From assembly GCA_958299035.1 (NCBI GenBank), contig CATQJL010000001.1, positions 50,780,461-50,844,460 of the forward strand: DNA of 64,000 nt. The letters are read 5' to 3'. The first letter of the stretch is position 1; every line of letters starts with the position of its first letter. The position numbers and the translations under genes were made by a program. This stretch comes from Cylicocyclus nassatus. Taxonomy: Eukaryota; Nematoda; Chromadorea; Rhabditida; Strongylidae. The notes below the pieces were generated by a model that was not told the DNA's origin, did no database searches, and saw only the letters and a list, made by a program, of their open reading frames with translations. Shown here in pieces: positions 30,225 through 61,441 of the stretch.

Positions 30225-30811
30225 CTCAGATAATCGCCAGGGGCAGGCGGCCATACGATTTTGAGCAAGCGGGCACCGGAAAAATAGTCAGCTCATTTCT
30301 TGCGGTCCGCTTGCAGATTTATGGAAGAATTTTAGCGAAAGTTTAGATGAATGCTTGGAAAACAATCGCGGTTTCCTTAGGGATTAGCTGCGGCGCAGTG
30401 CCGCATTCTCGCGGACTTTCCGCAATAATATGCAAGAATTTCGAGGGCCGCACGGTCCTTTGTGAAGGACCGCGCAACTCCCAGGTACATTCCGCTGAGA
30501 GAAAGTACCTCAAACTTGAGTAATTAAACCATCGATGACACCTCTGCCATGTAGAGTCTCACCTTTGCTCGGCATACGCCCGAAACTGCTCAAAAACCGT
30601 CCGTGCGCCAGCTGAAAACTTGACCAGCGCTCGCTGAAAGAGATTATTTGACGGGCGCCTGCAGAAAATTCTGTGTTGCTGCCCGCTGGCAGAACATTAG
30701 ACTGTAAAGGAAGTACCGATCGCTGAAAGTTTGGCCACGCCCCAAAATTCTGCTGACCGCTTGCAGAAAAGCGCGAGTTTGCGGACCGCCTGCCCCCGGC
30801 TATGATCTGAG
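30225..30811. mobile_element. SL1-carrying repeat, copy 1 (587 bp)
   Basis: Tips CTCAGATAATCGCC and (rough) ATGATCTGAG are inverted, with GGGGCAGGCGG facing CCGCCTGCCCC further in. The two other copies (45725-46309, 46914-47501) have almost the same length and are collinear throughout. GC content is clearly above the surrounding DNA. Internal motifs such as GCTTGCAGAAA and GCGCTCGCTGAAA recur. The short ORFs inside are not conserved as proteins between copies. Confidence 0.8.
30405..30530 (-). ncRNA. SL1-RNA-like core in repeat copy 1
   Basis: Bases 30530-30509 (minus strand) match the 22-nt nematode SL1 leader except position 12 (T for C). The leader is followed directly by GT (GTACTTT). 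Next come a stem GCGCGGTCCT/AGGACCGTGC with a 6-nt loop, a degenerate Sm-like AAATTCTTG, and a hairpin (30405-30429) whose arms include GCGGA/TCCGC. Leader, donor, stem, Sm site, stem is the order of an SL RNA. It may be a pseudogene. Confidence 0.6.
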
Positions 30812-30899
30812 GGTATGAGACCCTAAAAGTAGCGCAAAACCGGCCGACTATGCCAAGTTTACGATTTAGGATAACGAGAATAAAAGAGACCAGCCCAAA

Positions 30900-31310
30900 T
30901 CATTATGACTTGTAGTAAAGCGCGTGTCTGTCCGTTTGTCTTATGGTGGTTTCATGTCTGCCTGTCACGGAATTCATAGAGGATGTTGTAGGCAAGATCT
31001 TGAGCTGAATCGGTCATAGCACCCAATCAGCAGGTAGGTAAACAGTGTAGAAGCACAAGCTGATTCGATGATTGTAAACTTCAAAAACTACGCATCAAAA
31101 GGGTTCACGCAACTTTTTGGCCGACCAATGTGAGTCAGGGATTGTACTTTTTGCGATATTTGCTTAACAAGTAAATTGCAGACCATAGACTTAAGTCCAA
31201 AAAGTGAGCGATATCGATTCTTACGCAAATCAGCGCCAAAAAAGAGTAATGACGTAGATCATCAAATTGTCAAGGTTTTATCTAATTAATTGCGAAGATT
31301 TCTGCTCAGA
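30900..31310 (+). repeat. Degenerate member of dispersed repeat W
   Basis: CCTGTCACGGAATTCATAGA, later AGATTTCTGCTCAGAAATATAG and other short blocks follow the order seen in the better copies at 32755-33355 and 44805-45432. Strongly diverged. Confidence 0.4.
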
Positions 31311-31368
31311 AATATAGATGATGGAAGTGACTGTCCTTTGTGGAAACTACCCGACCTTAATAGCTTTA

Positions 31369-32090
31369 GGCCCGTATGCACGTACATCCCCGAGGGGAGG
31401 GGAGGGGATCTGAGAGGGGAATCGTCATATCTCGCTAGTCTGCATATCTTTCTTCTTCTTTCTCTGTCTTGCTTTTGAAGGTTCTCATACACTGATACTT
31501 GCGCATAACGAATGCCAGGTTACTGCATTCAAGATTAAATATTCACTATTTCGTCTGATCCCCTGGGGATCCCCAGGGATCACCTCACATTTTCAAAGTC
31601 ATTTATCTTCCTGAAAACTTGATGAAAATGCTCTAAAATTGTACTGAGGATATACTACAGCACTGCTAAACATGTTTATGGTAGAAATGAGGAAATCTCA
31701 AGATATCAAAATTTTCGATGAACCGCTGCTCGCGAGCCAGGGATTATCGAAAAAAATCTTCAGATCCCATTCCTTCTGTAAAACATGCTCAGCGGTATTT
31801 AGTATATCTTCAGTGCAATTTTGCAACGTTTTCATTGATTTTTCAGGAAGATAAATGGCTTTAAAAATGTGAGGTGATCCCCTGTGGATCCCCAGGGGAT
31901 CACACAAAATGGCAAAAAACCAATCTTGTATGGCAGTAAACTGGCATCCATTATGCGCAAGTATCAGTGTATGAGAACCTTAAAAAGCAAGACAGAGAAA
32001 GAAGAAGAAAGATATGCAGACTAGCGAGATATGACGATTCCCCCCTCAGATCCCCTCCCCTCCCCGCGGGGATGTACGTGCATACGGGCC
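31369..32090. mobile_element. PIF/Harbinger-like MITE (722 bp)
   Basis: GGCCCGTATGCACGTACATC at the left mirrors GATGTACGTGCATACGGGCC at the right, flanked by TTA and TAA. The arms pair (GACTAGCGAGATATGACGAT against ATCGTCATATCTCGCTAGTC) for over 150 bp. An inner palindrome, CCCCTGGGGATCCCCAGGG, occurs near 31560 and mirrored near 31880. Confidence 0.75.
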
Positions 32091-32199
32091 TAAGTAACTG
32101 ACCGAAAATCTCTTTTAATCTTTTGCGCAAAGATTTTCTCTTTTCAGTCTACCGCTCTTACATGGAAAAGTCACGGAATGAGTTGTTGTTACAATTCGT

Positions 32200-32660
32200 T
32201 CATGATGGTCAGCATCGCATAGGCTTTGGCCATAGTTTACCCGTGTTACCGGTGTTACTAGTGTTGCTCATGTTACTAGTGTTACCCATTTTACCAGTGT
32301 TACCCGTGTTCCTTGTGTTACTGGTGTTACCGGTGTTACTAGTGTTGCTCATGTTACTAGTGTTACCCATGTCACCAGTGTTACCCGTGTTACTTGTGTT
32401 ACTGGTGTCACCCGAGTCACTGGTGTTACTGGTGTTACTAGTACTAGTGTAACTAGTGTTACTTGTGTTACTGACTAGTCAGTGATACTGCGTTTTGAAA
32501 TGAGATTGTATCGTGATCATTTCATCTATCAACAGCAATAAAAGCGGGACACTAGTAACACCAGTAACACCAGTAATAACACGAGTAACACTAGTAACAC
32601 CGTTATCATGGATAACCGGGTAAAGTATGGCCAAAGCCATAGTGAGTTTTAAAGTCAGCA
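32200..32660. repeat. GTGTTAC minisatellite within a foldback
   Basis: From 32239 to about 32475 the sequence is a run of GTGTTACYNGTGTTACTR-type units (9- and 18-bp periods). 32550-32612 carries the complementary run (AGTAACACCAGTAACACC). The outer bases GGCTTTGGCCATAGTTTACC and GGTAAAGTATGGCCAAAGCC are mirrored. The Leu/Val/Pro ORF across it is a by-product. Confidence 0.75.
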
Positions 32661-32754
32661 TCATGCAGCAAGAGGAAGGCATGATAGAGGAGTCAATGCG
32701 AGACTCTGCGAAGCAGAGATAAAGAAATGGTAAAACATCAAGACCTTATAATAA

Positions 32755-33355
32755 GGGGCTAAGAGTTGTTTACGTGTTTTTGTGTGTATGTGTGTGTGTC
32801 CGTCTGTCACGAAATTCGTAGAGCGTGTGCCAGCCAACGTCCTAAACCCAAATTTTGCACAGCGCATGCTACCAGCATGAAAGTCCACCATGCAAAAGTA
32901 CGAGCGGATCCGTCAAGTGGTCCCCTCAAAACTGTAAGACGGATCCACTTGGCTTCTGGCCAGCATGGGTCCATAGTGTAACTATTTGCAAAACCTAGAT
33001 ATGTTTGACAAGTGGATATGCATGCCATGGACTTCAGCTCAAAAAAGTGGTCAAAAGTCTGTTACAGTACGAAGGCGGCGCCAAAATGATTGGTTGCTTA
33101 ACTGATCAATATGCCAAGGTGCTAGTTGAGTATTTGCTAAGATTTTTGTACAGAAATGTAGATCACGGTGTTTGTCGTTCTTATGGCGACTATCATGTTG
33201 CAATATATCCAAAAACTAATTTAAATTGCATTTGCTCTTTTGCGAGAAGTTTCATCCACGCGAGTTTACCGATCTCACATAAAAAAGCTGGGAATGAATA
33301 GTTGTTTACGGCTTATCCGTGATAGCCAGCACCGCGCGGTGAGTTTCAACGCCAT
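32755..33355 (+). repeat. Dispersed repeat W, forward copy (~600 bp)
   Basis: TTTACGTGTTTTTGTGTGTA, then TTTTGCACAGCGCATGCTACC, GGATCC blocks, GGCGCCAAAATGATTGGTTGC and GGAATGAATAGTTGTTTACG. All recur as complements in the same spacing at 44805-45432. Confidence 0.7.
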
Positions 33356-33454
33356 CATTATGCGGGAATGAGTAAGGCACACAGATAACAGAACCAGTGC
33401 GAACTTCTGCGAATTAGAGGTGACGCGCTGGTAATCGAATATAGTCATAAGCAT

Positions 33455-34546
33455 AAGGCCTAAGGCATACCTCCAGCGATCCATTCGTTACGATTTTCCA
33501 TCGCTGCGATTAGATTGCCTGGGCGACCGTCCGGTGCGTCAAAATCGCTCGACTCTTGGGCATACCCGTAGCGATTTTGTGAACGCTCACGCACCATACC
33601 GCATTATACGCGTTTTGGAAAAATTGCGCTAAATTTTCTGAAGTGCGTTTATTCGAGAGAATTCGAACAGAATGTGGCGCCATATGCTTCAAGAGAGCAT
33701 TACATCAAACGAGAAAGGATATGGATTCACACACATCCCAGTATTTACCAACGTTTTTCTATCGGCGCAAGTTTAATGGTTACATTGCAATGAAATCGAT
33801 AACTTGACACTGGTATAAAAATGTGCAAGTGACTTGTTTATTTTTGTAAACAATTAAAATAATTTTTAAAATTTTTTAAAAATTCAAATAAGCCTTATAA
33901 AAAATTTTTTTTGGGGGCGTGGCTGACGCCACGCCCCCTTTTTCCAGATTTTAGGGGTTGGGGGCCCGAAAAATTTTGAGAAGCCCCCTATAATTTTTTC
34001 GGAGTGCGTGGCTAACGCCACGCACCTTCATTTAAAAAAAATTTTGCCGCCCCCCCTCGAGCCGAAATCCTGGGTACGCCACTGCCTCTGTGTGCGCAAA
34101 GATCGCAGTCAACTCGTCGTCACGATTTTAAAAATGAAACATACTTTGCATGTGTTGTTTTCAAGAATGTATTGCATGGAATGTTAGATGACCTACCTTC
34201 TCTCATGCAGAGAGGAAGCGCTTGTGTGAGATGAATCCTAAATGAGATTCGCATGTTTGCAAAAAAAATACAAAACATCTTGCGAAAAAAGAAGGCATCC
34301 GAGCGATTCGCCCATCGCTGGGTCGAAACTAGCGATGGCGACATCGCTGAGTTTTAGCGATGTCGCAACGATTTCCTTGCTGAGGTATGCCCGTCCAAAA
34401 ATGGCCCGCGATTCGTCGCGGCTTCAATCTAACACAGACGTGGCGGCACCACACAGTTGAAGGCGCGTGCGCTGCGGACTCGGAACATATGTCCGAGTTG
34501 GAATTTGCGACGCGACTGGGATCGCGGGAGGTATGCCTCAGGCTTA
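33455..34546. mobile_element. ~1.1-kb element with ~23-bp inverted termini, holding a second element
   Basis: CTAAGGCATACCTCCAGCGA (33460) mirrors TCGCGGGAGGTATGCCTCAG (about 34522-34541). A second inner pair, GGGCATACCCG and GAGGTATGCCCG, occurs. The middle contains an inverted fragment of the hAT-like family ending at 34082. No target duplication is certain. Confidence 0.5.
33815..34082 (-). mobile_element. Truncated hAT-like element, inverted
   Basis: Read on the minus strand it begins CAGTGGCGTACCCAGGATTT, a typical hAT-type end, followed by a C/G-rich block and GAAGGTGCGTGGCG-TTAGCCACGCA, matching the left end at 57171-57260. The other terminus is missing. Confidence 0.6.
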
Positions 34547-34949
34547 AGACGTGTTTGACACGAAAAAGCATGTGATGTGAACTGCTTGGCGATCTACCCG
34601 TTATCACAGAATCGTTTTTGCATTAAGTATTTTGAATCGAAGCTTTAGATATAGCATAGTACTTGCTCCAGCTTACAAAATGTTATTCATTGAAAAAACA
34701 CGTCAAGGCAAAAAAGGGGCGATGTAACCTGCAAACCCCGAAACACTTGCCGCCACGAAGTTTGCAGAGGCCATGGAAGGTCATGACTGTCAGCATGTCA
34801 CCGAATTACACCCAAATTACACTCAAGATGAGCTGATTCTTCTCATGGTCGCCAGAGGCTCCTAGATTGTGGCGAGGTGGAGCTGCACTAGCAGCTTTTG
34901 CATTGCGGTTGCTTTGTGCTGAGGCGTACCTGATCGGTCGATCGTAGGG

Positions 34950-35125
34950 AAAGGGTCCGTATCAATTGATACCCGGACAGCCGCCCGCAGCCGCACCGTG
35001 TGGTAATTACGGATATGCAACGCTGCCCTGACTGCGCAGCGCTACGCGGCAGTCCCTCTCCCCCCTCTCTCGGTTACAGTCTCTCGCCATCACGCTTTGA
35101 GGTGCGAAAATCCTGGACTGTGCAG
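34950..35125 (+). repeat. Dispersed repeat R (copy 2)
   Basis: GGTCCGTATCAATTGATACC, then GACAGCCGC, GCAGCCGCACC, GCGCTACGCGGCAG and ATCACGCTTTGAGGTGCGAAA. Collinear with copies 1 and 3; not a gene. Confidence 0.65.
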
Positions 35126-35439
35126 TCGCAATGGTCAAAATTTCTGTTAAAGATGAGACAGTTTTTACGAAGGATTTTCTGGAAACACGCAAACGCAGAT
35201 ATTTAACAATGAATTCAAATATTCGAGTATTGACCATCTTAGAAATGAGATTTTTGAAAAGGGAAATATTGGAAATGGTCGAATAATTAATTATTTGAAA
35301 AATCAAGATTTGAAAATAAATTCAACTCTTTTTAGAATTCAACTCGAATTTTTTAACAACTATCAGCTTTGAGTGTTCTTGGCTGATAACGAAAAAAACA
35401 TAGTGAAGAATAAACAAATTAGGCCTTTTTATGCAGCTC

Positions 35440-35626
35440 CTATACTCTGGGCTAGCCACACCCCCCGAAAAATTTTTTTGTAAGGCTAGCAAATTTGAAA
35501 AAATTCTAAAAATTATTTTTATTTACAAATATGACCAAGTCACTACATTTTTCTGACTCATGTAAGTACTTTCAAAATTTTTGCGACCCATTCTCGAGCC
35601 CCCTCCCCTTTTGTTACACCACTGAT
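35440..35626 (+). mobile_element. Right-end fragment of the same hAT-like family
   Basis: ACTCATGTAAGTACTTTCAAAA, TTGCGACCCATTCTCGAG and the terminus ACACCACTG match the right end at 61520-61606. The left side is truncated. Confidence 0.5.
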
Positions 35627-35979
35627 GCTTAGTTATTACAAATGACAGTTGCGAGACTTTGTCGTATACCCTGAAAATTAGGAATTTGAAATTTTCAAAA
35701 ATTAGATGCAGTCATGTTTGTGAATGGAAAAGCCGGAGGAGGAGACATTCATTTCTTTCAAGGAGACATTCATTTCTTCGGGAAGCAGGGAAGTGTAAGC
35801 TAAGAGACATTGCCACATTTGAAAAGCTGTCAGGAAAAGAAGGAAAAGATTTCACTCTTGTTTTTAGAATTTTGATGATATGCTAGTAGGAGCCCAATTT
35901 GCCTACGAGTCTTGTCAGTCTACATATTTCACTGTTCTTCTAGCCTATTTGTATTGGCTGTGCCATAAGAATTGTTGAT

Positions 35980-36115
35980 GCGCGACCTAGGTCTTTTCGC
36001 ACCTCAGAGTGTGGTGAATGGCAAGAGATTCAGGCTGCCGCGTAGCACAATACAAGTAAGCTCCTCGCTAACCACCCGGTGCGGCTGCACGCGGCTGTCA
36101 GGGTATCAATCGACC
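35980..36115 (-). repeat. Dispersed repeat R (copy 3, inverted)
   Basis: The complement reads GTATCAATCGATC-like bases in reverse order, with TTTTCGCACCTCAGAGTGTG and CTGCCGCGTAGC. It faces copy 2 across about 850 bp, giving a loose inverted repeat. Confidence 0.6.
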
Positions 36116-36694
36116 GCCTCCCTTAGCGAAGATCACGCTCAACCTGAGGTTATGAAATCGGGATATCGAAACATAAACTCAAAATAGCGATTTTCGTCCG
36201 ATTGGAGTACGAATTTGTAGGTGTATTTGATGTTTCCGCATAAGATGGAGGCTTTCCGTAAAACTTTGAGATTTTCTTCTTTTGAAATTTTTTTATAAAT
36301 GTCACTGCAGTTTCGGTATATTCAGAGGTTTTTTGACATGTTTTTCCGTGAATGCTGGTTGCTTAGAACCTCATAACTTTTCCTTTTGGATTGAGGTTTT
36401 TTTTCACAACTGATACTGCTGGTCGGTAAAAACAGTATTTGGGGTTTTCAAGTTTTCTATCACTTTCCGAATATAATGGTGGTTTTGCTGGAACCCTTAA
36501 ATCTTGATTTTACCAAAATTCTGTAAGAAGTATTTCAAAAAACTTCCAAAATTCTCAGTAAAACCGTCATCATATTCGGAGACATGACAGAATACCCCTA
36601 AACACCAACTTTGAAAGGTTTGCCGGGAATTATAAGAAAAAACTGATCAATCATATTGATCGCCGATTATTGTTAGCGGCTACCCAACTTCACT

Positions 36695-37235
36695 ATGCTA
36701 CGGTTGCCTCCTCGGCCTCTACCAGCCTCCTTCTTCGACCTCCATCTGTTTCCTTCCAACTCGTTCCTCAATATGTGTTTCTCGAGTGCCTCAGCAAGCG
36801 GCTTCCCAACGTCGTCTGCCGACGTCACTCATTTCGCTTCCATCCATCTCCCCCTTCGACTACCTGGCTCCCATTCCTCCACGGCCACCACACCCTCGAC
36901 TGGGAGATGCAAGCTAGACGGCCCTGCCAGCTCCTCAATCGACAACTTCATATCTGGACCATCCTCTCGTCTATTAAGCGTCGTGATTGATCACGGCTAT
37001 CTCCCGTCGTCTCACACCGCCATCCCAAATCATGCCACGCCGTTCAAACCTCGTGTGCCCCCCCCCCACCTCAGCTCTTCTTCGTACCTGCCCTGATGCC
37101 GCCGAAAAGAGGCAAGGAAAGAAGTGAAGAAACCACTGCATGCCCTACATGGCTCAAAAAAATGATGAAGGATTGTGACGCTTACGTTGAAAGGTTTGAC
37201 TGTATTTTTGATCTTTTGGTTAAATGCAAATATTA
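36695..37235 (+). pseudogene. Ser/Pro-rich ORF followed by a 46-codon ORF: possible retrotransposon ORF1 fragment
   Basis: A 133-codon Ser/Pro-rich frame ends in TGA at 37094-37096, overlapping the ATG (37096) of a second frame (TGATG). The second frame begins MPPKRGKERSEETT, continues with a charged, helix-prone stretch (KKMMKDCDAYVERFDCIFDL) and is cut by a mariner-like MITE at 37236. Basic start plus coiled-coil-like stretch is reminiscent of LINE ORF1 proteins; this is inference only. Confidence 0.35.
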
Positions 37236-38148
37236 GGTTGATGCAAAAGTAATGGCCGATTTTTCAAGCCTTTCTTCAGGGCAACTTTTTTCCACCAGAA
37301 TATCTTTTCTAAATTACATGTAACACATCACTGAGAAGCTGTTCTTATGCTCCATCTAATGGTGGTTAAAGCGGGCTTCTATCCTCATCTGTTATAAAGT
37401 TACTGAGCTTCAAATAACCGCATCCAAATTCAGAATTTCATTGCCTTCACTTTTCTGGACAGAATTCAAAAGCGCATGAACTGCGCTTCATAGGAAATTT
37501 CGCTATTGTATGTAATAGAAATTATCTATATTCAGCATACTTGACTGTATTTTCTGAAGTTGTCCAGGGGCTGAGATATCGGAATCTCATTATTAGCCGT
37601 TGCGGTCATTTTATGATCCATAAATCCATTTTGAAGAAGTCTATCGCTGAAGCTTTGCTCAATTCTTTAAGCGTAATGCTAGTGCATCCTAACAGCTGTT
37701 TTTGCAAAAACATCCGGCTGTTCAGTACGCAGGAATTCGCAAAATTCTATATTTGGGGTCTTGAGGCATACTGAAAAAATGTTGAAAAAACTGACAATTT
37801 TGAATTTTAATTTTTTTCCTATTCGCAAATTATCTTTCTTCAAACCGTTTTCATCGTATTTTGTACTATTGGCTTGCGGCTACATGATAGGCCACATATT
37901 ATTCGTTATAACAAATTTTGAAGGAAGTTATGAATTGTCAAAATAAGGTTTTAGGAAAAAACCTTCTTTGTCTTTTAGTCCGTATTTTTCTTCCCGTTTG
38001 CGCTGTGAGTATAAATAAGTGTGCGCTGTATTGCGAGAGGATTGCTGCTTCTGATGGTCTTTACTTCATTTAGAAAGGTGGATTTCATAGAGAGTTATAC
38101 CACGTCAAATTGAAAATTTGCAAAACGGCCATGATTTTTGCATCAACC
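37236..38148. mobile_element. Mariner-like MITE, copy 1 (913 bp)
   Basis: GGTTGATGCAAAAGTAATGG at the left faces CATGATTTTTGCATCAACC at the right, both flanked by TA. GGTTGRTGCAAAAGTAAT is a classic mariner terminus. The interior is collinear with 57379-58282 but encodes no transposase; the short ORFs differ between copies. Confidence 0.8.
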
Positions 38149-38299
38149 TATTACAATATTTATTTGATTTCGGGAATTAAGCGCGCGCGTTTACTTCTTG
38201 TCAGGAAATACATGAATTATGCCAATTACAGCGCTCTCGTAAAGTACAATGCATATTCTCGTATCGTTCAAAAAAAGGCTACAGGATAATATGGGTCGG

Positions 38300-38850
38300 G
38301 ATGAGAAGAACACCCCTGAAGCGACCGCCGCATTTACAAGGAAGCAATCAAGAAAGTGATTGACGTGATGATGAAATGTTTTTGGAATAGGTCAACCATT
38401 GAACTGATGTCCGCTTCTATCCTGAAGTACGCACAAGGAGAATTTGTCGCCCTTGAATAATCAAGACAACCGCAGCGCAGTTAATAAGAGACACCTTTCT
38501 TGATTATATGAAAAAGGCTAGGATTTCGTTGACTAAGCAGTGATTCTTATGCGCGCAGGGACTACACCCGTGAAGTCCTTGAGTTTGACAGAGAAAGCCC
38601 ATTTCTCATCTCAAGCAAGTTTTTGTACGTAGTGCGCTCAAACCACAAGCTCAAAAATCCGCGCGAACGGCCAAGCCACGGTAATGTGTTTAATGGCACT
38701 TTCGAGCAATCTGCGAACCTTACTGTCCTTGCAGTTCCTCAAATTTGCAGTCAGGTTAACAACTCTTCTGGTCATCTCCAATCAAGTCGAAGCCACTTAA
38801 TGGCCCGAATACCTAACCATGGCGCATTGGATCGCTAGGATGAGTGTATA
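38300..38850 (+). pseudogene. Coding-like but broken sequence, unrecognised
   Basis: ATGGGTCGGGATGAGAAGAA opens a frame that breaks after about 22 codons and seems to continue in another frame (IKKVIDVMMKCFWNRSTIEL). A third stretch near 38585 gives FDRESPFLISSKFLYVVRSN. Codon use looks protein-like, but frameshifts prevent any identification. Confidence 0.25.
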
Positions 38851-39370
38851 AGATACGGTGGGTGTGTAAGATGTAGAAGCCGAAGTCGTATGGATCGAGC
38901 GAATGGCTGCTGCGAGTTATGGTTGCAGCATGGATACTGTATTGCTTTCGATGTGCACTAACAGCGCTTGCAGAAGCTCAATAACAACAACCGTGCAGAT
39001 TATACTTGAGTGGCTATCAGCATCTACATCTAATTTCAATTGCTAATATGTTCCGTTGTTTCTCCTGTGACAATGTTGCTTTGTTTTTGTAATGTTCGGT
39101 TAAATGCTTGATTGATTGTTTGGCTGTATAGATAAGCTGTCTCCTTGGGACGGATCGGACAATGGATGCTGGATATCTTATTTTGTCTCTTCCTCCTGCA
39201 ATTCTTTCGTGAGTTCTGATGCAAAATCTTTTGTTCTTTCTGCTTCTTGTCTCTCCTTTTAGTAATAAATCTTTAATAATTTTAGTCAATGTGCATAAGA
39301 AACATCCGTTACTTAGTTACCTCCTTTTTTAAGCTCGCGTCGTACCCCAATGTAAAGGGAGCTAACAGCA

Positions 39371-40391
39371 GGGCCGGTAGTAATCTACCCTACTTGGCGG
39401 CTTCAAAGATGCCGCCAAGTTACCACACATCGCGGGAAGTTGCCAACTCCGGCGGCATCTCGCGGATTGCTTTTAGGTTTTGGTAAACTCATATAGTCTT
39501 TATGGTCAACTCATATAGTCCCTATTCACATGAAGTTTTGATGATCAGACAACCGCAAAACAACGACACCGATCGCATTCGAACCCGCGTGCTTCATCTT
39601 TCAGCGCCGCCGCACCAACCACTCGATCAAGCGGCCAATTTCTCTGTGTTTGCGGCAGCCATTACAGGAAGGGAACGTACAGGTCAGTGTTGCCTGTGAG
39701 AGGGCGTGATCAATACTTTGCGCGATAGGCGCTGACCTGGAAGAACAGCTGAGTGATATAGGCACGAGAGAGCCAAAATCGTTGCAAACAAGATTTAGAG
39801 GGATTGCAAATAGAAGATGACGTTCTTTTTTTTTGTTTTATAAGATTACTAGACATCTCTTCTACATAATTAGCATCAATTTTTAACGAGGAAAATCCGT
39901 ATAACGAAAAAAATGATGGTTTTTGATGGAAAGCGAATTTTTTTGGTTTTTCTGCTTGACGTGGAATGTGTGATATTGCCGCACTACCCAAACTTGCAGA
40001 CGCCGCCAGCAAGGTGCCACCACCTCGACGTGGTAGGAGCACGTGGGGTGGTGACACCTTGATCTCTCAAATAAGCACGCTATTTCTCGTGCTCTCTGAC
40101 CTGGCGGCATCCCTCAGTGCTAAAATTTCGACGAGATGCCGCCAAGTCAGCTCGCGAAGTTGCGGCCAGCACTTCCTGCCTACCTCAACAATTTTATTTA
40201 GGGGGGTTAGAATCTTCAAGTGCCAAGTGAGGTTCCTTTAAGGTCACAATGACTGCTCGACCAGGAAGATCGTGGTGAAAGGGGTTTGGAGGGCACAGAC
40301 TTGAGGTCGGTTTTCCCGCCGACTTCACGTAAAGGTGACGGCGACCTGACGGCGAAACATGCCGCCAGGTCGGGGGAATTACTACCGGCCC
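39371..40391. mobile_element. 1.0-kb foldback with GGCGGC/GCCGCC hairpins
   Basis: The termini GGGCCGGTAGTAAT and ATTACTACCGGCCC are exact complements. The interior carries repeated small hairpins: TTGGCGGC...GCCGCCAAG at 39399-39421 and 40101-40147, GACCTGACGGCG...GCCGCCAGGTC near 40340-40373, and GGTGCCACCACCTCGACGTG mirrored at 40036-40058. No target duplication is found. It includes the tRNA-like stretch at 39560. Confidence 0.65.
39560..39636 (-). repeat. tRNA-like sequence, probable tRNA-derived SINE head
   Basis: On the minus strand TGATCGAGTGGTTGGTGCGG resembles a tRNA A box with D-arm, and GGGTTCGAATGC resembles a B box/T-loop about 35 bases further on. The acceptor arms do not pair (GCCGCTT against ATCGGTG), so this is not a functional tRNA. 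Confidence 0.45.
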
Positions 40392-40599
40392 AGGTGCCAT
40401 GGCTGGCCCACATACTTTTTCTTTCAATTCTTTTTTTATTAGATCGCCTTCCGTTATTTTTTCAATGCCCGTTCTATTGTAAATAAAACCCCGATTGAAA
40501 TTTCTTCTCATAAGCCACCCACTTTGCGTAGTCGTCACCAAAGCTTGTGTAAGCCTTCTCTTATACATGACGCTGCCATCACTCAATCAAATGAGTATT

Positions 40600-43050
40600 G
40601 CGTATATCGTTGTGATCGGGAATCACTTTTGGCGTCGTGTTTGAAGCATTCGCTTTAGAGGCAAGTTTTCAGTGATTTTTGCCAATACCTCATCACTCAA
40701 GTTACTACTGCAAGTCGTGACTTATACATGGTTGCCGTTTACAGAAGCCCTTCATGCAACTTGCTTTTTCCAACTTACTCAATTTTCTCAATGTTTCTTT
40801 TGAACGAAACCACGGATTTATTCTTCTTTTGGAATCGACCTCCCACTGATAGATTGGGATAACACATGACTACCAAAGACAACATTCAAACAACTGCCGC
40901 TGCAATCTTCGATTTCTGTTTATTGCATGGCCTCTCCCAGCTTGTAGCTCCTTCTAGCCATGGGCTCAATATCCTTGACCTGGTTTTGGTTAACACATCT
41001 GTTATCAATGGTGTTTTGCTACCTCTGTTTAGCACCTCAGATCGCAATATGATATGCCTAAACTCTGCTGAAAATTACTCATTGAACCTAAAGGTAACGT
41101 CTTTGAATATCGTAAAGCTAACTTCACTGACATTGCGCGAACTCAATTCGTTCAGTTGTATCAAATCTTTCACTGCTGTACCAATCCAGGCGAATGTTAC
41201 GGTCAGTTTACTGCCATTTGTCGTCTACTTATCAAAAACGATTTATCCCTTCGTATAAAGCAAAGCAGATATGCCATGGTGCCTGATACGTTTAGTAGAG
41301 TGGCCCAATTCCATCGCCTTCGGGTCATATTGGACATGCGTGCATTGCCTCGCTGGAGAAGCGTTTGTGGAAAAATTGCCATATTGGGTAATAAAAGAGC
41401 CTTTTATGATAATTAATTTAAAAACTAAGGCTTTTTGACAGTATACCTGATCTCCAAAGAAACAACAATATTGTGCACAATGACTTGCGCACAACAAATC
41501 TCTTTGCGGACCAGAATGAAAAGGTCTGTGAAAGTTTCCCTCCTACTTTTGTTACATTGACCCCTAGAATTGCAGAAATACTCGATTGGGTTGTCCACCT
41601 CAGTAGTTTATCGAAAACTCCTCAGTTTAAGAAATAGGAATTCCATCTCTCTAGATAAGATACCCTACATATTTCTATTGCTCTGGGAGTAGCCACCGCT
41701 TACCATAATATTCCACAGGGTCCTCTTAAAGGCAGCACCTCGCCAAAACCGAACATCCCGACATTTTGACATAGAAGGTCGTTCGCACCCCAAACATGAG
41801 AACAGAGCAGGTCCGAGCGCACAGCATGCTGCCCTTGCCTAGAAAACCCCGTTACGCGCAAGCTATTCTAATACGCGCGGACGAGCTTGCGGTTCTCCCT
41901 GGCCCGTCAGAGAATGCATGCCGCAATGTTATAACTGCGAGGGTCCCGCAACGATTCCGCTTCTCTGACCTTGGCGTGACATGCTCCACTCGTCCAAATT
42001 TAAAATAGGAGGCCTTGGAAAAGTGGTTTTTGCCAATTTTGCGCTCTTCAAGGTGGATCTTTGGAATCAGCGCCGCCTCGTATTACCCCAGGTAAGCAAA
42101 AAAAAATCCAAGTCGAGAATCTGCCGAGCCGCTGCCTTTAAGAGGTGAAGTTCCTGAAATGTGGAAGCTAGGACTGGTCAAGCCCTTCTACAAAAAAGGT
42201 CTTAAGACAGCAGTAGACACTACCATTCAATTTACCGCTCAACATGTAAGGTTATGGAGAAAATACTTTTTGAAGGTATTACCATATTTCTTATCCAAAA
42301 TGGGTTCTTTTACAAAACGCGAATGGTTTTCTAGTAAAAGATCGACAATGTCTGCTGTTATGTCAACTCTTTCGCTTTGGGACGAGGAAGTGGACCGATT
42401 CTCTGTATGCTTTGTCGATTACAGCAAAACCCTTGATTCAACTTCATACACCTACCTTTAGATAAGCTTCATGCCTATGGTAAACAGGGCTCATTGCTCA
42501 GCTTTTTGAACTCTTTCCTCAACTGTAGACGCAGTAATTACTATCAACAATGTTGGTTCACGGGTTTACAGCACTACTAGCGACGTGCCTCAAGGATCGC
42601 CCTTTGTATTCTTGGAAAAAGCCGCCCTACATTTCATTTCATGCTAGATGGCTGCATCTTTAATTGTACTTATTCAGTTTATGTTTGGGTGTTGCATATA
42701 CTGACAGTTGGACATCCGTGGCTACATCTTGAGTTTATCTTGAAAGCCAAATGCTCAATTCAAAACTCAAAGCATTCAACAGTTGTACTCCGTGCTTCTG
42801 TTCAGATTGTTTACTATATACGTAAGACCCTTACATGAAAATTGCTCACCATTGTGGTCTCCTTAAAGTAGGGCACAGATTTCAGAAAGAGAAAGTCCAG
42901 AGTTCTTCACCTATACAACTTTTGCTAGAAGAGGCATTCTTGGATTGTCGTATCTCGGCAGAATCAAAAAGTTACAAATATTGACTCTACTGGGCAGAAG
43001 TTATCGGGCCGACTTTTATCCATTAGCTCACTACAAACGAGCTTAATCTC
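40600..43050 (+). pseudogene. Degenerate LINE retrotransposon (endonuclease + reverse transcriptase, CR1/jockey-like)
   Basis: Pieces of one polyprotein appear in order, in shifting frames. Endonuclease: LYMVAVYRSPS at about 40720, LPLIDWD-like bases at 40840, NILDLVLVN and a STSDRNM that replaces the usual SDH at about 40965-41050. Reverse transcriptase: VPEMWKLGLVKPFYKKG at 42150, SSKRSTMSAVM at about 42335, FVDYSKTLDS at about 42410. C-terminal region: CSPLWSP-like at 42845, FQKEKVQSS, LLGRSYRADFYPL ending near 43025. Frameshifts, stops and a 408-bp MITE at 41730 show it is dead. CR1/jockey assignment is from motif order. Confidence 0.75.
41730..42137. mobile_element. TTAA-flanked MITE (408 bp) inside the LINE
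   Basis: AGGCAGCACCTCG (left) and GAGCCGCTGCCT (right) are inverted, and TTAA lies on both sides (41726-41729, 42138-42141). It splits the LINE between the segment coding IFHR and the one coding VPEMWK. Keeping one TTAA puts both halves in the same frame. Confidence 0.75.
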
Positions 43051-43930
43051 AAGCTGTTTGATGTTTTGAGGAACCACAACTGTCGCGGATTAGGCCCCCA
43101 GCTCCCACCGTCAGTGGTACTAAGGCTCTCCTGCATCGGCGAGGGGAGCCAGGGGTCCCATCCGGTATAGGATATAGCGTAAATTGTGGTGGCGTCACCT
43201 GTGAGAATGCTACTTGCGCCTGCCACACAACACGTCATGCACACATAGAGGCCCTTGCCACCAACCTACTTAGCTGTTACTCGACACCTGCGACTTGACT
43301 ACTCTCAACTATCGACGGTTGGGGCATGTACATATAACCAAGGCACGTAACTAGTATTGTGCCAGCCTTCCGACAGATCTATCACACTAGGCATGATTAT
43401 AAGATACACACAAACATGATGACACAAGATATCGCCGGAGCCACAGCCGAGCTGTGGCTCACCGCGTCAAAACAAATCACACGTGCAAAATGCCCACCAT
43501 TTATCCACAACTATTCCCCAAACTCAAACACAAGAGGTGAGCACAACCAGCCAGATCTTATCCTAGAGGCCGACAATATCGGAAACACCCCGTGGTGGTA
43601 TCGCCGGCGTATGCCAGGCGCGAGCTCTTAGGGGTTACCTCGTCTGCGAGGTTGCCTGTCCCCCGTGGCGTGTTGGATGTAGACGACGCGGAGTTGGGAC
43701 GGCGCTGCATCGATCGATAACATGGTAGACGAAACTGGGACCCAACCGCTCACCAGGTAACGAGATTGAAGACTGATTTGAAAGCTGCGGCGGTAGCGAT
43801 GGGAAGGCGGGAGCAGCGCGAGGACAGCGTCTCGGGATCTCTTCGCAGGCGGCGGCGGCCTCCTTTGAAGGAAGTCGCGAATCCGCGACAACAACGAACA
43901 AGTGTGACAAGGGCCCATTAAAGGTTAAAG
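43050..43930. other. GC-richer stretch without assigned gene
   Basis: Contains a 90-codon frame (43359-43631) rich in polar residues and a 96-codon minus frame (43628-43918) rich in Arg/Pro. Neither shows a family motif. A small palindrome, GAGCCACAGC-CGA-GCTGTGGCTC, lies near 43438. This may be further retroelement debris. Confidence 0.35.
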
Positions 43931-44804
43931 AGGATAAAATGAGTTTTACTTCCTATGAGTAAAGCTTCGTTTGTCGCGTGCAGATGCCCTGGAATGCTTT
44001 TGATTGCGAGCTGTCCAAGTGCTCCTCTTTTATCTGTTTTGTTCACATCTGCTTGAACATCTCCAGTTACAAACGAGAACGTTAATAGGGTTAGCGCTAT
44101 TAGCGTTTTCTCGTTTGTGTGGCTCTATTGGCTGTTGAATTGTACCGATGTGGTGAAAACGGAGCAATTGGGAGGATAGATTGTGAACATCTTCAGTTAG
44201 GTGGTATGTTAGTCTCCACTTTTTCATCCTTTGCTTTGTTTTCTTTATAAACGTTTTTTTCTGTTTTTTTACGTTCACTGTTCCCTTTTGTCACTAACTT
44301 TTGTCTTTCTTTCATCATCCTGTTTGGCAGATTAAACATGAACATGAACTTCAAATGCGATTTTGATAGAATCTATTTTATACATTGTAGAATGAGGAGC
44401 AGTTACCCTGAGCAGCATCAACTCTCTTTGGTAATTGAGAGCAATTGTGCGTTGCTGACAGTTCATGACCGCCTATACACCGCGTCAATTGGGGTGTGGC
44501 ACGCCATACCTGGGGGTCGTATTGAGGAGTCAAAACGGGAAGGGGGTCATACTCGGATAATACTGATAATAACGATAACATGTTTTCGTTATTATCAGTA
44601 TTGAGTGAGCAGTTTCAGATAGCCCCATTATGCGAAATACAAGCACATGAATCTTGACTTATCATCGAGTACCTACCATATCATGATAACGACACCCTAT
44701 CAAGCATAACGAGCAATATATTTATACCAGTGCGTCACCTCTGCTTCGCAGAGGCCCGCACTGGCTCCACTATCTAGGCCCTACTCATTCTCGCATAATG
44801 ATGG

Positions 44805-45432
44805 CATTGGAACTCACCGAGCATAGCCGACTATCACGAACAAAATGTAAACAACTACTCATTCCGAAAGCTTTTTATGTGAAATCGGTGATTTCGCATG
44901 GATGAGACTTTTTGCAGGAGAACAAACGCAAATTTTTACAGGTTTTTGATTTTCCCATGGACTTGACAGTTGCAATAAGAACGGCAGTCACCGTGTGCTA
45001 GGTCTTTGTGCAAAAATCTCGTTAAATGCTCTAGTAAAACGTTGGCAAATTGACCATTTATGCAACCAATACTTTTTGGCGCCGTTTCTCTGAAGTAATA
45101 CACTTTTGATCACTTTTTGGGTCTAAGTTCATGGTTTGCACTTTTACTTGACATAAACATCCACTACTTTGCGAAAAGTGGAATTATGGACCCAATTATG
45201 CGGCCCAAATGCAAAGTGGATCCGTTTGACGCGCAGTTTCTGAGGGATCCACTCAACGAATCTGCTCGTGCTTTTGCATGTTGGACTTTCATGCGGGTAG
45301 CATGCGCTGTGCAAAATTTGAGCCCAGGAGGTAGGCTGGAACACTCTCTACGAATTTCGTAACAGACACACTCTCACACAGACACACAGACACACAGACA
45401 CACAAAGTCACGTAAACATCCTTAGCCCATTA
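44805..45432 (-). repeat. Dispersed repeat W, inverted copy
   Basis: Complement of 32755-33355: GTAAACAACTACTCATTCC, GCAACCAATACTTTTTGGCGCC, GTAGCATGCGCTGTGCAAAA and a CACACAGA microsatellite (45373-45403). No coding sequence is kept between copies. Confidence 0.7.
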
Positions 45433-45724
45433 TTATAAGTTATGATAATTAGCATGTCATATAACCCCGTGGAAGAAGTTTGGGCGAATTCTGAACATTT
45501 CGGATTCTGGGCCACCTGAGTGAGGTGGTCATATTCGAACATGATTAGTTCCGTTTCAAATTTGAATTAGCTAATCTTTTTGCACTCGGTACAAAGCATA
45601 CTCCTTCTTTGTCGAGCCAGAAATCCGCTTCAAAAGACCTCCAAACTGTGGAATAAGAAGCCGACCAAAATCTGATTTTTTTATTTTTCGCCTTTGATGG
45701 CTGTGCTTTCACCAACGGTTACTC

Positions 45725-46309
45725 CTCAGACAATCGCCGGGGGCAGGCAGCCATGCGAATTTTGAGCAAGCGGGCGCCCAGAAAATAGTTCGCTGATTTC
45801 TTGCAGTCCGCTTGCAGAAACTTGAGATAATTTTGGCCACTTTTTGGATAAACGCTCGGAGAACTATAACGGTTTTTCTGTGGGTAAGTTGCGACACAGT
45901 GGCGCATTCTCGCTGACTTTCCGCGAGAATATGCAAGATTGTTGTGGGTTGCACGTCCTTTGTGGGGGACCGCACTGCCCAGGGTACCTTCCGCTAAAAG
46001 AAGGTACCCCAAACTTGGGTAATAAAACCATCGATGGCACCTCTGCCACATAGAGTCTCACCTTTGCTCGGCGTGCGCCCGAAACTGCGTAAAAAGAGTC
46101 CGAGCGCTTGGTGAAGTTTTGGCCAGCGCTTGCTGAAAAAATTATTTGCCGAGCGCTTGCAAAAAATGCTGTATTGCTGCCCGCTGGCAGAATATACGAC
46201 TGTAAAGGAAGTGCCGCCCGCTGAAGATCTGGCCACGTCCCAAAATTCTGCTGACAGCCTGCAGAAAAGCGCGAATTTGCGGACCGCCTGCCCCCGGCAA
46301 TTCTCTGAG
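45725..46309. mobile_element. SL1-carrying repeat, copy 2 (585 bp)
   Basis: Collinear with copies 1 and 3, with tips CTCAGACAATCGCCGGGGG and CCCCCGGCAATTCTCTGAG. It lies in the spacer of a larger inverted repeat (45433-46832), so it probably inserted there or travels with it. Overlapping ORFs of up to 156 codons on both strands lack counterparts in the other copies. Confidence 0.8.
45906..46029 (-). ncRNA. SL1-RNA-like core in repeat copy 2
   Basis: Bases 46029-46008 match SL1 at 20 of 22 positions and keep the central TTACCCAAGTTTG exactly. GT follows, then GGTACCTTC/GAAGGTACC as a 9-bp hairpin, then a stem with one base lost, AACAATCTTGC in the Sm position, and a terminal hairpin ATTCTCGCGGA/TCAGCGAGAAT. 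The deletion and mismatches suggest decay. Confidence 0.6.
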
Positions 46310-46913
46310 TCAGAACAAAAACGACCAATCTGGCTCAAATCTCCTTTGGAATCTAAGAGCTTCAAGCTATCGAACCGCATAATTACTACTGGTGTGGCAC
46401 AATTCCAAAAAAGCTGTGGCTGTGACACCTTTTTGGGGTTGTGCCACATCCCATTAACTGTCAAAAAAACATTTTTAGCGAGTAGCGTTTACACGTTTGG
46501 TAGCTTGTAACTTTCAGATTTCACAAGAGTGATTTGAGCCTAATTGATCTTCTTTGCGCTGAGTTATTAAAGCGAAAAATGAAGAATAAAACAACACAGT
46601 TGGCTTCTGATTCCACAGTTTGAAGGTCTTTCGCAGCGGGGTTTCTGACACAAAGAAGGAATACTGCTTTGTACCGAGTGCAAAAAGATGTAGCTAATCC
46701 ATGTTTGAAACAAAGTTAATCATGTTCGAATATGATCACCTCACTCAGTTGGCTCAGCATCTGGAAATCTCACGATACGCCCAAACTTCGTACACACGGG
46801 TTATTTGACATGCTAATTATGAATCCATTAGTCCTTATGCTTGGTAGGGCCTTCAAGTTATGCATATCTTAGGTATGCAGTAATTCAGGGAGGCCTTCTC
46901 ATGACAGCAACTA

Positions 46914-47501
46914 CTCAGATAATCGCCGGGGGCAGGCGGCCATACGAATTTTGAGCAAGCGGGCACCAAAAAATAGTTCGTGGATTTCTTGCGACCCGCT
47001 TGCAGTTTGGAGGAATGTTGACCAATTTTCAGACGAATGCTCGGAGAACTATCGTGGTTTTCCTATAGATTAGTTGCGGCGCACTGGCCGCATTCTCGCG
47101 GACTCTCCGCGAGAATATGCAAAATTGTTGAGGGCCGCGCGGTCCTTTGTGGAGGACCGCGCAGCCTTCAGGTAGTAGTTTCCGCTAAGAGAAAGTACTT
47201 CAAACTTGAGTAATTAAACAAGCGATGACACCTCTGCAGCATAGAGTCTCACATTTGCTCGACATATGTCCGAAACTGCTTAAAAAGAGTCCAAGCGCCT
47301 GCTGAAACTTCGGCCAGCGCTCGCTGAAAGAGATTATTTGACGAGCGCCCGCAGAAAACTCTGTATTCTGCCCCGCTAGCAGGACATTTGACAGTAAAGG
47401 AGGTACTGCCCGCTGAAGGTTTGGCCACACCCCAAAGTTCTGCTGGCCGCCTGCCAGAAAACACGAGTTTGCGGGCCGCCTGCCCCTCGCGATTATCTGA
47501 G
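46914..47501. mobile_element. SL1-carrying repeat, copy 3 (588 bp)
   Basis: The tips are the best kept of the three: CTCAGATAATCGCC at the left and GCGATTATCTGAG at the right; with the next bases they extend to CTACTCAGATAATCG/CGATTATCTGAGTAG. It lies about 600 bp from copy 2 in the same orientation. No clear target duplication can be read. Confidence 0.8.
47092..47220 (-). ncRNA. SL1-RNA-like core in repeat copy 3 (best-preserved RNA fold)
   Basis: Bases 47220-47199 match SL1 at 19 of 22 positions (first, twelfth and last differ), and GTACTTT follows. The RNA would then contain a perfect 10-bp stem GCGCGGTCCT/AGGACCGCGC with a 6-nt loop (47137-47162), AACAATTTTGC as an Sm-like site (47119-47129), and a perfect 11-bp hairpin ATTCTCGCGGA-GAG-TCCGCGAGAAT (47092-47116). 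A hairpin-Sm-hairpin 3' half is standard for SL and U snRNAs. The fold is very good, but the leader itself is imperfect. Confidence 0.6.
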
Positions 47502-47935: not shown

Positions 47936-49392
47936 TCAGCAAATCTCGGGAGCTGTTTGCTTGCTCACTGTAAAGCTGTGATGGTTACGGGGAGATTTTG
48001 CTACTGAATGTAAGCTCTGAGCATTCACGGTTGTTGTTGCAGTTGTTGAAGACGTTGTGCGCACAGGGCTCAAAACTATCTTGTAAATCGCTCTCCTATA
48101 ATCGCTGATAGTAAGCATAATAGCCACTGGATCGATCACCGTAATGGAAAATGTTATGATGAGAGGAAGGTACTTGAAGAGGCTAAAATGTCACGATCAC
48201 ATTTGTTAATTCAGCAGAATTAGAAACCTTGGTGGTGGGAGTTCCATTATCACGAAGAAGAGCATTATAAAGCGAGGTATAAAAGCCAGCACACTAGGAA
48301 GCATCGCCTGAAAAAGGTGAAAGTGTCTTGTTATCACGGGAAGGCTTACTTTGTAGAATTCAAGCTTTTATGTAACTCTTCTATGTTTACCTGGATTGTC
48401 AAAGCTATAAGCATCTGCTTCTGAAGCTTGATTGTTTTCTTGCTAAAAGCGCCTCGCTTTAGTGTTCTCGATGTCTGAACACCAAGGAAAATCATAACAA
48501 TGAATGTTGCAATCGTCATCAACATCATAGTTGCTAAGCCCACTGTTGGCTTCCAATAAATGAGTAAGGAATTGTCTATCACTTGCTAAAATGTTGAAAA
48601 AGGGGTCATTAATCACAAAATTATGATGAGCTTCAAACAAGTAAGGCAACACACTAACATATGTCAAGATACACATGTGTGGTAATTCATGCAGATCACG
48701 ATGAAAATTATTTCGAACTGCTTCTCCGGCATACTCATAGCATTCTTTGGTAGGACCGAACCAATATATGACAATAAGGAAGTAGATAAGACCCCAAACA
48801 AGATTGAATACAACCCAAATTGCAAGCTTAGAATTTTTGAAGTACTGCTTCTTTTCCGGTCTAAATACGATCGCATTAGGGTTATTGAGCAATCTTGACA
48901 CCTTTTGATGGTTTTACCACTTGCACATCTCAACTAACCTGCATACGATGATGTAACGGTAAAGAAAGTGCAGAATTAAAAGTGCACATTCTATTCCATG
49001 CATGGAGAAGAAAAGGCCCATGAACAACGGGTCCAATGCGTGCACGTTCGTTATAATTCCGTTGTTAAAAGACATAATTGAATGCCCATATATGAAGTTA
49101 ACCTGCTCAAGATAAATTCTTTGCATCACAATGTTTTTCTCTTCGATTTATTGAAGTGGAAGTCCTCTTGCGTAATAGGACCTGTCAAGTGAATTAGAAA
49201 CCATACCGGTTTGGCGATATACTCCACGGATGAATACAGAATGTTATATATTGCGAAAGCAACCAAAAGGTATCTATAGGTACCAATGCTTTTCCGTTCT
49301 TTTTTGCAGGAAACATAAATGAAGAAAGCGTTTACGACCACCGAGAGCGCAGCCGCTACCGAAGAAATGGGAATCAAAGCATTTTTATCCAT
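47936..49392 (-). CDS. Str-family seven-transmembrane chemoreceptor (nematode serpentine receptor), six exons
   Basis: Exons in coding order: 49392-49207, 49102-48939, 48893-48659, 48585-48391, 48307-48228, 48182-47936. Together they make 1107 nt, an uninterrupted 368-aa frame ending in TGA. Introns are 40-105 bp. Seven hydrophobic segments can be placed: TM1 ISSVAAALSVVVNAFFIYV, TM2 with IGTYRYLLVAFAIYN before it, TM3 ending HFLYRYIIV, TM4 LAIWVVFNLVWG, TM5 VGLATMMLMTIATFIVMIF, TM6 LPSVLAFIPRFIMLFFVIM, and TM7 with IDPVAIMLTISDYRRAIY. The GxYRYLL motif in the first intracellular loop, the YRY after TM3 and DP...YR in TM7 are hallmarks of the Str superfamily (str/srd/srh/sri/srj). Such receptors usually act in chemosensory cilia. 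The Ser/Thr-rich tail is normal. No inactivating change is seen. Confidence 0.88.
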
Positions 49393-59603: not shown

Positions 59604-61441
59604 CAGAGGTGCGATAGGGGGAGCCAAGTCTCCCCCTACCTTCACTTTTGAGCTGGTACGGGGTGACCACCTTCACTTTTGGAATAAAAAATTTTTCGCT
59701 GGACGACAAAGAAGGAAAATAAGCAAAACAAACGCAAAAAAGATTATTGAAAGCATATATTTATGTATACGGCGGCATATATATTTAAAATAAAGGTTTT
59801 TAGTAAATGGTGTATTTGGAAGTAAAGCTTAGCAAAACTGTACGGATTTTATTAAGCAAATTATGTTATAACGTATAGCGAAGGAAGTAGGTCGATCCAG
59901 GCAGTAACGGCGGAGAACCAGAATTTTGAATATTTAAATAGTGAAAAATCATGCGAAATTTCCACTGTTATAAAGCTGTTGTTTGAAGATGTCAGCAGTT
60001 GCGACTTCATAGGTTTTGAAGAGTAGATGTTGCTCTATCAGCTAGTGAAGGAATCGGGTCGATTTAAGAGATAGTCGTTGAAAACCAGAGTTCTAAAACT
60101 TTACGCCATTTTTGCGTGTTTTTTGACTGTTGAGAGTTAAACTCTTATAAATCTTGAATGTGGAAGTGTATGATGTTGCGACTTCATAGGTTTTATAGAG
60201 TAAGGTTTGCCTTATCAGAATATGTCTTGTCCGTTCCGATCCATTGAAACACCTCCGAGATCCAGAGTCATGAAAAAGCAGGTAAAAAAGAGCTTTTTGA
60301 ACTTCAACAGCTCATAACTTCTTCAGAACTGCATGAATCATGTTGCGACTTCATAGGTTAGATTCCTCTCATCAAGAGCTTTCAGATGATGTATAATATG
60401 TGGGGGTTTAGAGCCTCCTGCGAATTATGACCGGGGGGGGGAGACTTTTTAGGCCAAAGTCTCCCCCTCGCCCATTTTAATGTATTGGCTGGAGGCTGCC
60501 GGGGGAGACTTTGGCCTAAAAAGTCTCCCCCCCCCGGGCATATGCCGTAAGAGGCGCGAAACCCCCACATATTATACATCATCTGAAAGCTCTTGACGAG
60601 AAGAATCTAACCTATGAAGTCGCAACATGATTCGTGCAATCCTGAAGAAGTTATGAGCTGTTGAAGTTCAAAAAGCTCTTTTTTACCTGCTTTTTCATGA
60701 CTCTGGATCTCGGAGGTGTTTCAATGGATCGGAACGGACAAGACATATTCTGATAAGGCAAACCTTACTCTATAAAACCTATGAAGTCGCAACATCATAC
60801 ACTTCCACATTCAAGATTTATAAGAGTTTAACTCTCAACAGTCAAAAAACACGCAAAAATGGCGTAAAGTTTTAGAACTCTGGTTTTCAACGACTATCTC
60901 TTAAATCGACCCGATTCCTTCACTAGCTGATAGAGCAACATCTACTCTTCAAAACCTATGAAGTCGCAACTGCTGACATCTTCAAACAACAGATTTATAA
61001 CAGTGGAAATTTTGCATGATTTTTCACTATTTATTTATTCGAAATTCTGATTCTCGGCCGTTACTGCTTGGATCGATCTACTTTCTTCGCTGTACGTTAT
61101 AACAAAATTTGCTTAATAAAATCCGTACAGTCCAACAAACTTCTACTTCCAAATACACCATTTACTAAACACGTCTATTTTAAATTTTTATAAATAAAAT
61201 TTATAGATATTTTTAATATTCATCGTATCTGTGGCCATAAAGAGGGCCGTTGGGTCGACGTTAGACCTAGAAAGATAGCTCCGTTCGTCCGTTCTATCCT
61301 CCCCCCGCACCTCCCCCCCCCCCCCCGTCGACGTTTTTGGGAGGTGAGTGTCCGACACTACCACCTTCACTTTTGGCCGGCCAGTGGTAGCTGAAACCAC
61401 CTTCACTTTTGGGGGACCCGGCTCCCCCTATCGCACCTCTG
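59604..61441. mobile_element. hAT-like foldback element, copy B (1838 bp)
   Basis: Same termini as copy A: CAGAGGTGCGATAG and CTATCGCACCTCTG. The duplication GTTACGAA is exact on both sides (59596-59603, 61442-61449). Palindrome centred near 60485; the inner blocks AAGTCTCCCCC, CTTCATAGGTT and CCACCTTCACTTTTGG match copy A. Confidence 0.88.

Follow-up and report, generated by a model that had tools for sequence, protein, structure and literature searches.

Pack-MULEs are non-autonomous DNA transposons that capture genes and carry target duplications of about 9 bp, and NeSL-1 and the SLACS/CRE-type retrotransposons insert into spliced leader (SL) genes. In Brugia malayi, 120 SL1 sequences have been reported outside the arrays, 60 of them at most 1 kb from PAO long terminal repeat (LTR) retrotransposons (PMC7181701). 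Small RNAs have also given rise to repeats, such as the short interspersed nuclear elements (SINEs) from 7SL and tRNA and the families of small nuclear RNA (snRNA) pseudogenes, and SL RNAs are described in the same review as descended from U1 and dispersed at other loci too (PMC4233971). SL pseudogenes in several animals are mentioned in the paper on SLIDR (PMC7986045), and degenerate SL1 and SL2 sequences are reported from the Haemonchus genome (PMC7652881). Here we describe a window of 64,000 nucleotides (the whole stretch of DNA analysed; contig CATQJL010000001.1, positions 50,780,461 to 50,844,460) from the nematode Cylicocyclus nassatus, which contains three copies of a short element resembling a miniature inverted-repeat transposable element (MITE), each with a block similar to an SL1 RNA gene. 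Based on the marks of mobility, the repetition in the genome and the homology to the SL1 gene of the host arrays (leader with flanks, and Sm site), we consider it likely that a non-autonomous DNA transposon captured a host SL1 RNA gene and spread its copies, most of which would now be decaying passengers.

The preliminary description of this window had reported three collinear repeats of about 587 bp with inverted tips, each with an SL1 match (21, 20 and 19 of 22 bases) at an equal position and strand and followed by GT. Both observations hold: the copies measure 585-588 bp and share 80-83% pairwise identity, their six tip matches have 0-2 mismatches per 20 bases, an exact 2-bp target duplication flanks all three, and the leader match with its GT recurs in each. 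Stem-loops and an Sm-like motif had also been placed after the GT; the stems stand, with leader-to-hairpin-III folding z-scores of -4.2, -4.6 and -6.6 for copies 1, 2 and 3, whereas the motif is intact in copy 3 only (AATTTTG) and reads ATTCTTG in copy 1 and AATCTTG in copy 2.

The genome searched was an assembly of 514.7 Mb in 369 contigs. The best 40 of 3832 first-look candidates for copy 1 were scored and gave 63 matches, with copy 1 itself at 100% and the other best matches at up to 92% identity. A second subfamily (B), first met adjoining other copies of the element, was searched in the same genome, the best 40 of 3383 candidates being scored; the samples of 30 copies for subfamily A (window copy 1 among them) and 20 for B are therefore best-scoring matches to one query each and non-random. 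The copies are units of 575-598 bp (consensus lengths 589 bp for A and 578 bp for B) with inverted tips, CTCAGATAATCGCCGGGGGCAGGCGG, and the terminal inverted repeat of the A consensus is perfect over 26 bp. Exact 2-bp target duplications flank 26/30 A copies and 16/20 B copies (three of these 20 with one common flank), the calls for L006 and L014 (A) and L074 (B) being uncertain because the search trimmed them at one end. No long reading frame is present, the longest in the A consensus being 99 codons, and the 2.7-5.8% divergence of the 30 A copies from their consensus suggests that the family moved fairly recently.

Judged by its inverted tips, 2-bp target duplications, short length and dispersed high copy number, the element is a MITE-like non-autonomous DNA transposon. 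A SINE or other retroposed small RNA was rejected on the grounds of the inverted tips and the 2-bp target duplications, and an SL1-bearing LTR retrotransposon on these and on the unit length. Short unannotated ENA proteins match the element (P0002-P0004; in a second search P0002, P0004 and, weakly, P0005 with E 0.094), and alignment identifies P0002-P0004 as read-throughs of related copies (P0004 aligned in part), that is, as relatives of the element in other data. The 26-mer composed of the leader with T at position 12 (T12), GGTTTAATTACTCAAGTTTGAG, and GTAC has 998 exact genome sites against 0 for the reversed control; the surroundings were seen for those sites that fall in the fetched loci, and the number by itself is no evidence of leader retention.

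Exact SL1 occurs 582 times in the genome, 470 times followed by GT. A large group on contig C1 forms tandem arrays of about 680 bp per unit, with leader, GT, a stem, AAAATTTTGG and a 3' hairpin in each unit, and from this anatomy we infer that the unit is the host SL1 RNA gene. One such tandem array lies at C1:30137500-30141500 (L051); 5S rRNA was absent at the Rfam gathering score from the 4 kb searched, unlike the C. elegans SL1 array, which is reported to be linked to 5S (PMC1657053).

The A consensus is identical to the array SL1 gene at 33/36 positions from -5 to +31, and at 13/14 positions over AAAATTTTG[G/C]ATAT at the Sm site, both figures being from a consensus in which one copy (L030) was misoriented and to which window copies 2 and 3 also contributed. 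With the corrected consensus and without the leader part, the highest local score against the array gene was 12, owing to the Sm match, and was reached by 8/5000 shuffles. The element keeps the array gene's GGTAYTTTCT after the donor and its TCGAY before the leader. Since the A and B leaders (21/22 to SL1, then GT) depart from SL1 at position 12 alone and the C leader at positions 6 and 21, parsimony places an exact SL1 at the root of the family. The earlier proposal that a mobile repeat captured, or partly descends from, an SL RNA gene is thus upheld by an alignment that extends past the leader in both directions and includes the Sm site, together with the tips, the duplications and the dispersed copies; as far as sequence comparison can establish such an event, capture of an SL1 RNA gene by a transposon is established.

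Several observations nevertheless weigh against this reading. From +32 to the Sm site the consensus gives no alignment with the array gene, and in A and B (donor +23) the Sm site is found at +93 instead of +68, 25 bases further out, so that the captured gene would have to be much changed or partly derived from elsewhere. The match upstream of the leader amounts to just 4/5 bases, and the tip of the B consensus is perfect for just 9 bases before a mismatch. Folding is uninformative on strand, since the block's reverse complement yields z-scores almost as strong (-7.4 in A, -5.7 in B). Rfam SL1 was not found in the element copies, where only unrelated families appeared below threshold; in the array gene, likewise, it did not reach the gathering score. 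Finally, a covariance model of the family, built from 51 aligned blocks with window copies 1-3 as members, gives 25.3 and 23.7 bits on an unrelated, leaderless, hairpin-rich stretch of the window. The same model gives 150 bits for the block of copy 1, itself a member, 30.0 bits for the array SL1 gene and 22-32 bits for the units of L052, another SL1-bearing repeat. As the unrelated stretch and L052 also score, the model score alone proves little and the case rests on the alignments.

With respect to mechanism, a genomic copy of the host SL1 RNA gene would have been taken up by a MITE-like element and carried to many sites. Capture probably took place at the DNA level, since the match begins upstream of the RNA's first base. 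A transposase encoded elsewhere would act in trans, recognizing the tips and mobilizing the unit with its SL gene as a passenger. Most copies would be decaying without selection, with strong hairpins inherited from the source copies. Passive carriage of what are mostly dead SL genes is the most likely state of the copies, and some of them may be expressed.

Predicted folding and motif give the order of the block as hairpin I (11 pairs) just 3' of the leader, hairpin II (17 pairs), the Sm-like stretch (ATTTTG in the A consensus, ATTTTTG in B) and hairpin III. In sliding windows along the consensuses, the block folds with z-scores of -7.6 for A and -8.7 for B, compared with +1.65 to -2.26 for windows of the same strand that lie entirely 5' of the leader; in both consensuses strong structure is confined to windows overlapping the leader-to-hairpin-III block. 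Across the 51 aligned blocks, 96.5% of cells are pairing.

It is possible, although in our judgment unlikely, that the captured gene still works, some copies being transcribed to T12 SL-like RNAs that are trans-spliced or tie up Sm and trans-splicing factors, which would keep the block intact in transposing copies. This explanation draws on the comparison of the A and B consensuses, which differ by 3/138 substitutions in the block versus 43/440 elsewhere (Fisher p 0.003) and by none in +1 to +52, and in which the leader, GT, Sm-like motif and all three hairpins are kept. Comparisons with C, however, reveal no extra conservation of the block (14/137 versus 50/440 other positions against A, 17/137 versus 52/440 against B, both p 0.88; the C consensus is built on three copies, of which one is gapped in hairpin II), and the likeness of the A and B blocks may therefore result from recombination. 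The A-B conservation starts one base before the leader, and the 100 bases upstream, the expected place of a promoter, differ strongly (18/100). Conservation like that of the block (2/100 differences) is also seen over the first 100 bases from the 5' tip, as would be expected for a transposase-binding end. The distance between donor and Sm site also exceeds the 20-60 bp given as the SLIDR default (PMC7986045).

Private mutations likewise speak against a working gene, as they hit the block at the general rate: 55/4140 in the block versus 179/13530 outside for A, and 8/2484 versus 24/7920 for B, where 18/20 copies were used after L069 and L070, two of the three sharing one flank, were dropped. 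Leader and GT are not significantly spared (A 5/720 versus 229/16950, p 0.18; B 1/432 versus 31/9972). A lower leader and GT mismatch in the 30 A copies (1.1% versus 4.0% overall, with 5.3% of windows as low) was accordingly set aside as a sign of selection, given the lack of a private-mutation effect (p 0.18). In the A sample private mutations are more frequent in the stretch 3' of the block (89/5100 versus 145/12570 for the rest, p 0.002), indicating that mutation rates vary along the element.

The pairing data are divided. Changes on both sides of a pair occur in 10 cells of the 51 blocks (shuffle mean 3.7, 1/500 as high), and pairs in the C consensus are broken less often than under random placement (P 0.05; its member copies 0.05, 0.09 and 0.013), both in favor of function. 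Yet the number of pairs with double changes, 4, is unremarkable (47/500 shuffles as high), 6 such pairs and 8 cells are obtained even when the structure is shifted by +2 columns, the counts are inflated by related rows, and the A-B changes break no pair, as chance predicts (P 0.57). The signs of kept pairing in the block are weak. These results suggest that the copies decay neutrally and that either recombination or weak selection acting on the source copies best accounts for the shared A-B block. The preliminary description had named a lack of excess conservation in leader, Sm site and stems as the finding that would speak against its proposal; this lack is seen in part with regard to function, since private mutations fall at the general rate and extra conservation appears in A-B but not in C-A or C-B, and it does not extend to the origin of the block. 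Its further idea that the element may spread SL variants or compete for trans-splicing factors is doubtful. Also improbable is a selfish carrier, in which some of the copies would produce an SL RNA of the T12 variant for trans-splicing to mRNAs of the host or of transposons; if this were true, trans-splicing in the worm would draw on a mobile gene pool.

Much less probable is that the leader came from RNA, through the copying of either a trans-spliced mRNA or an LTR retrotransposon with SL1 into the element. Exact SL1 with GT is indeed found within LTR-like repeat pairs in the host genome, and the Brugia paper attributes such sites to leaders added to expressed PAO elements (PMC7181701). The Cylicocyclus element, however, retains the flanks of the array gene on both sides of the leader and donor as well as the Sm block. 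At the 20 fetched dispersed sites with exact SL1 and GT, TCGAY directly before the leader occurs in none (0/20), the closest match after the leader is GTATTTC in L040, and the family model reaches just 13.7-17.4 bits (13/20).

These dispersed sites (L031-L050) lie in the first 28.4 Mb of contig C1. Three pairs of them are near-identical direct repeats of 339-657 bp, 7.8-9.7 kb apart; the pairs scarcely resemble one another, and the LTR-like status is seen for them only. ATAAA stands directly before the leader in 9/20 of the sites. GT follows 20 of the 27 exact SL1 sites listed ahead of the first array, so that a simple origin from mRNA-spliced leaders poorly fits the dispersed sites. The repeat-rich stretch L052:570-2200 (C1:31164500-31167200) contains many exact SL1 units followed by GTAC, on both strands, and palindromic GTGACGTCAC-like motifs, with TCGATGG before the leader in one unit, as in the MITE.

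That a palindromic stretch of an ordinary MITE came to resemble SL1 by chance or convergence can be dismissed, for although much of the T12 leader is self-complementary and the copies of the window reveal by themselves no excess leader conservation (17/22 columns invariant, equaled by 43% of 22-column windows), SL1 matches appear in 0 of 100 dinucleotide shuffles of the window against the three real ones, the A and B leaders are one change and the C leader two changes from exact SL1, and the alignment to the host array SL1 gene, with flanks and Sm block, is found in a nematode genome.

Table 1. Positions of the element copies and their parts within the window.
Feature	Position	Strand	Remarks
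Copy 1 of the element, subfamily A	30225..30811	-	587 bp; 2-bp target duplication CC
Copy 2, subfamily C	45725..46309	-	585 bp; target duplication GA
Copy 3	46914..47501	-	588 bp; target duplication TA
Terminal inverted repeat, copy 1, SL 3' side	30225..30250	+	First 20 bases matched; 26-bp length from A consensus
Terminal inverted repeat, copy 1, SL 5' side	30786..30811	-	First 20 bases matched; length from A consensus
Terminal inverted repeat, copy 2	45725..45750	+	First 20 bases matched; length from A consensus
Terminal inverted repeat, copy 2	46284..46309	-	First 20 bases matched; length from A consensus
Terminal inverted repeat, copy 3	46914..46939	+	First 20 bases matched; length from A consensus
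Terminal inverted repeat, copy 3	47476..47501	-	First 20 bases matched; length from A consensus
SL1-like leader, copy 1	30509..30530	-	21/22, T at position 12; GT donor 30507-30508
SL1-like leader, copy 2	46008..46029	-	20/22, T6 and G21; GT donor 46006-46007
SL1-like leader, copy 3	47199..47220	-	19/22, three changes; GT donor 47197-47198
SL-RNA-like block, copy 1	30401..30535	-	Leader, hairpins I and II, degenerate Sm-like motif, hairpin III
SL-RNA-like block, copy 2	45902..46034	-	Sm-like motif degenerate
SL-RNA-like block, copy 3	47088..47225	-	Sm-like AATTTTG at ~47120-47126

Elsewhere in the window, positions 23589-25416 hold a large inverted repeat with 476-nt arms (99% complementary) and tandem AATTTCGCGAAATTTCCG-like units, which obtains 24-25 bits with the SL-block model though leaderless. 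Two related long foldback elements lie at 59777-61191 (arms of 691 nt, 95% complementary) and 8740-9944 (392 nt, 86%). Positions 48446-48913 contain part of a nematode Str-type chemoreceptor gene, with Str above the cut-off at E 2.4e-8 (one of ten frames tested) and a sole protein match, from Cylicostephanus goldi, at 73% identity over 46% of the query; these matches point to a nematode host, probably a strongylid.

A MITE holding an SL RNA gene was not reported in the open-licence papers searched. Such an element would allow SL RNA genes, which otherwise sit in tandem arrays, to be scattered at the DNA level and to diversify, and it bears on the origin of variant leaders, on SL pseudogenes in genome surveys and on whether mobile elements feed the trans-splicing system. 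It is also a warning for annotation, as near-SL1 matches in such genomes are often transposon copies. Like a Pack-MULE, the element has terminal inverted repeats and carries a piece of a host gene to many sites, but its target duplications are of 2 bp rather than about 9 bp and the captured piece is a small nuclear RNA gene. NeSL-1 and the SLACS/CRE-type elements are likewise mobile and associated with SL RNA genes, but SL genes are their insertion sites, whereas the present element contains one. The SINE and snRNA families described in the review resemble it in that a small RNA gene has turned into a dispersed repeat, although they spread by reverse transcription and the present element has inverted tips and 2-bp target duplications (PMC4233971). 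With the PAO sites reported from Brugia it shares an SL1 leader on mobile elements outside the SL gene arrays (PMC7181701); those, however, are LTR retrotransposons with a leader, while that of Cylicocyclus is a DNA element with terminal inverted repeats that carries leader, donor, hairpins and Sm-like site together.

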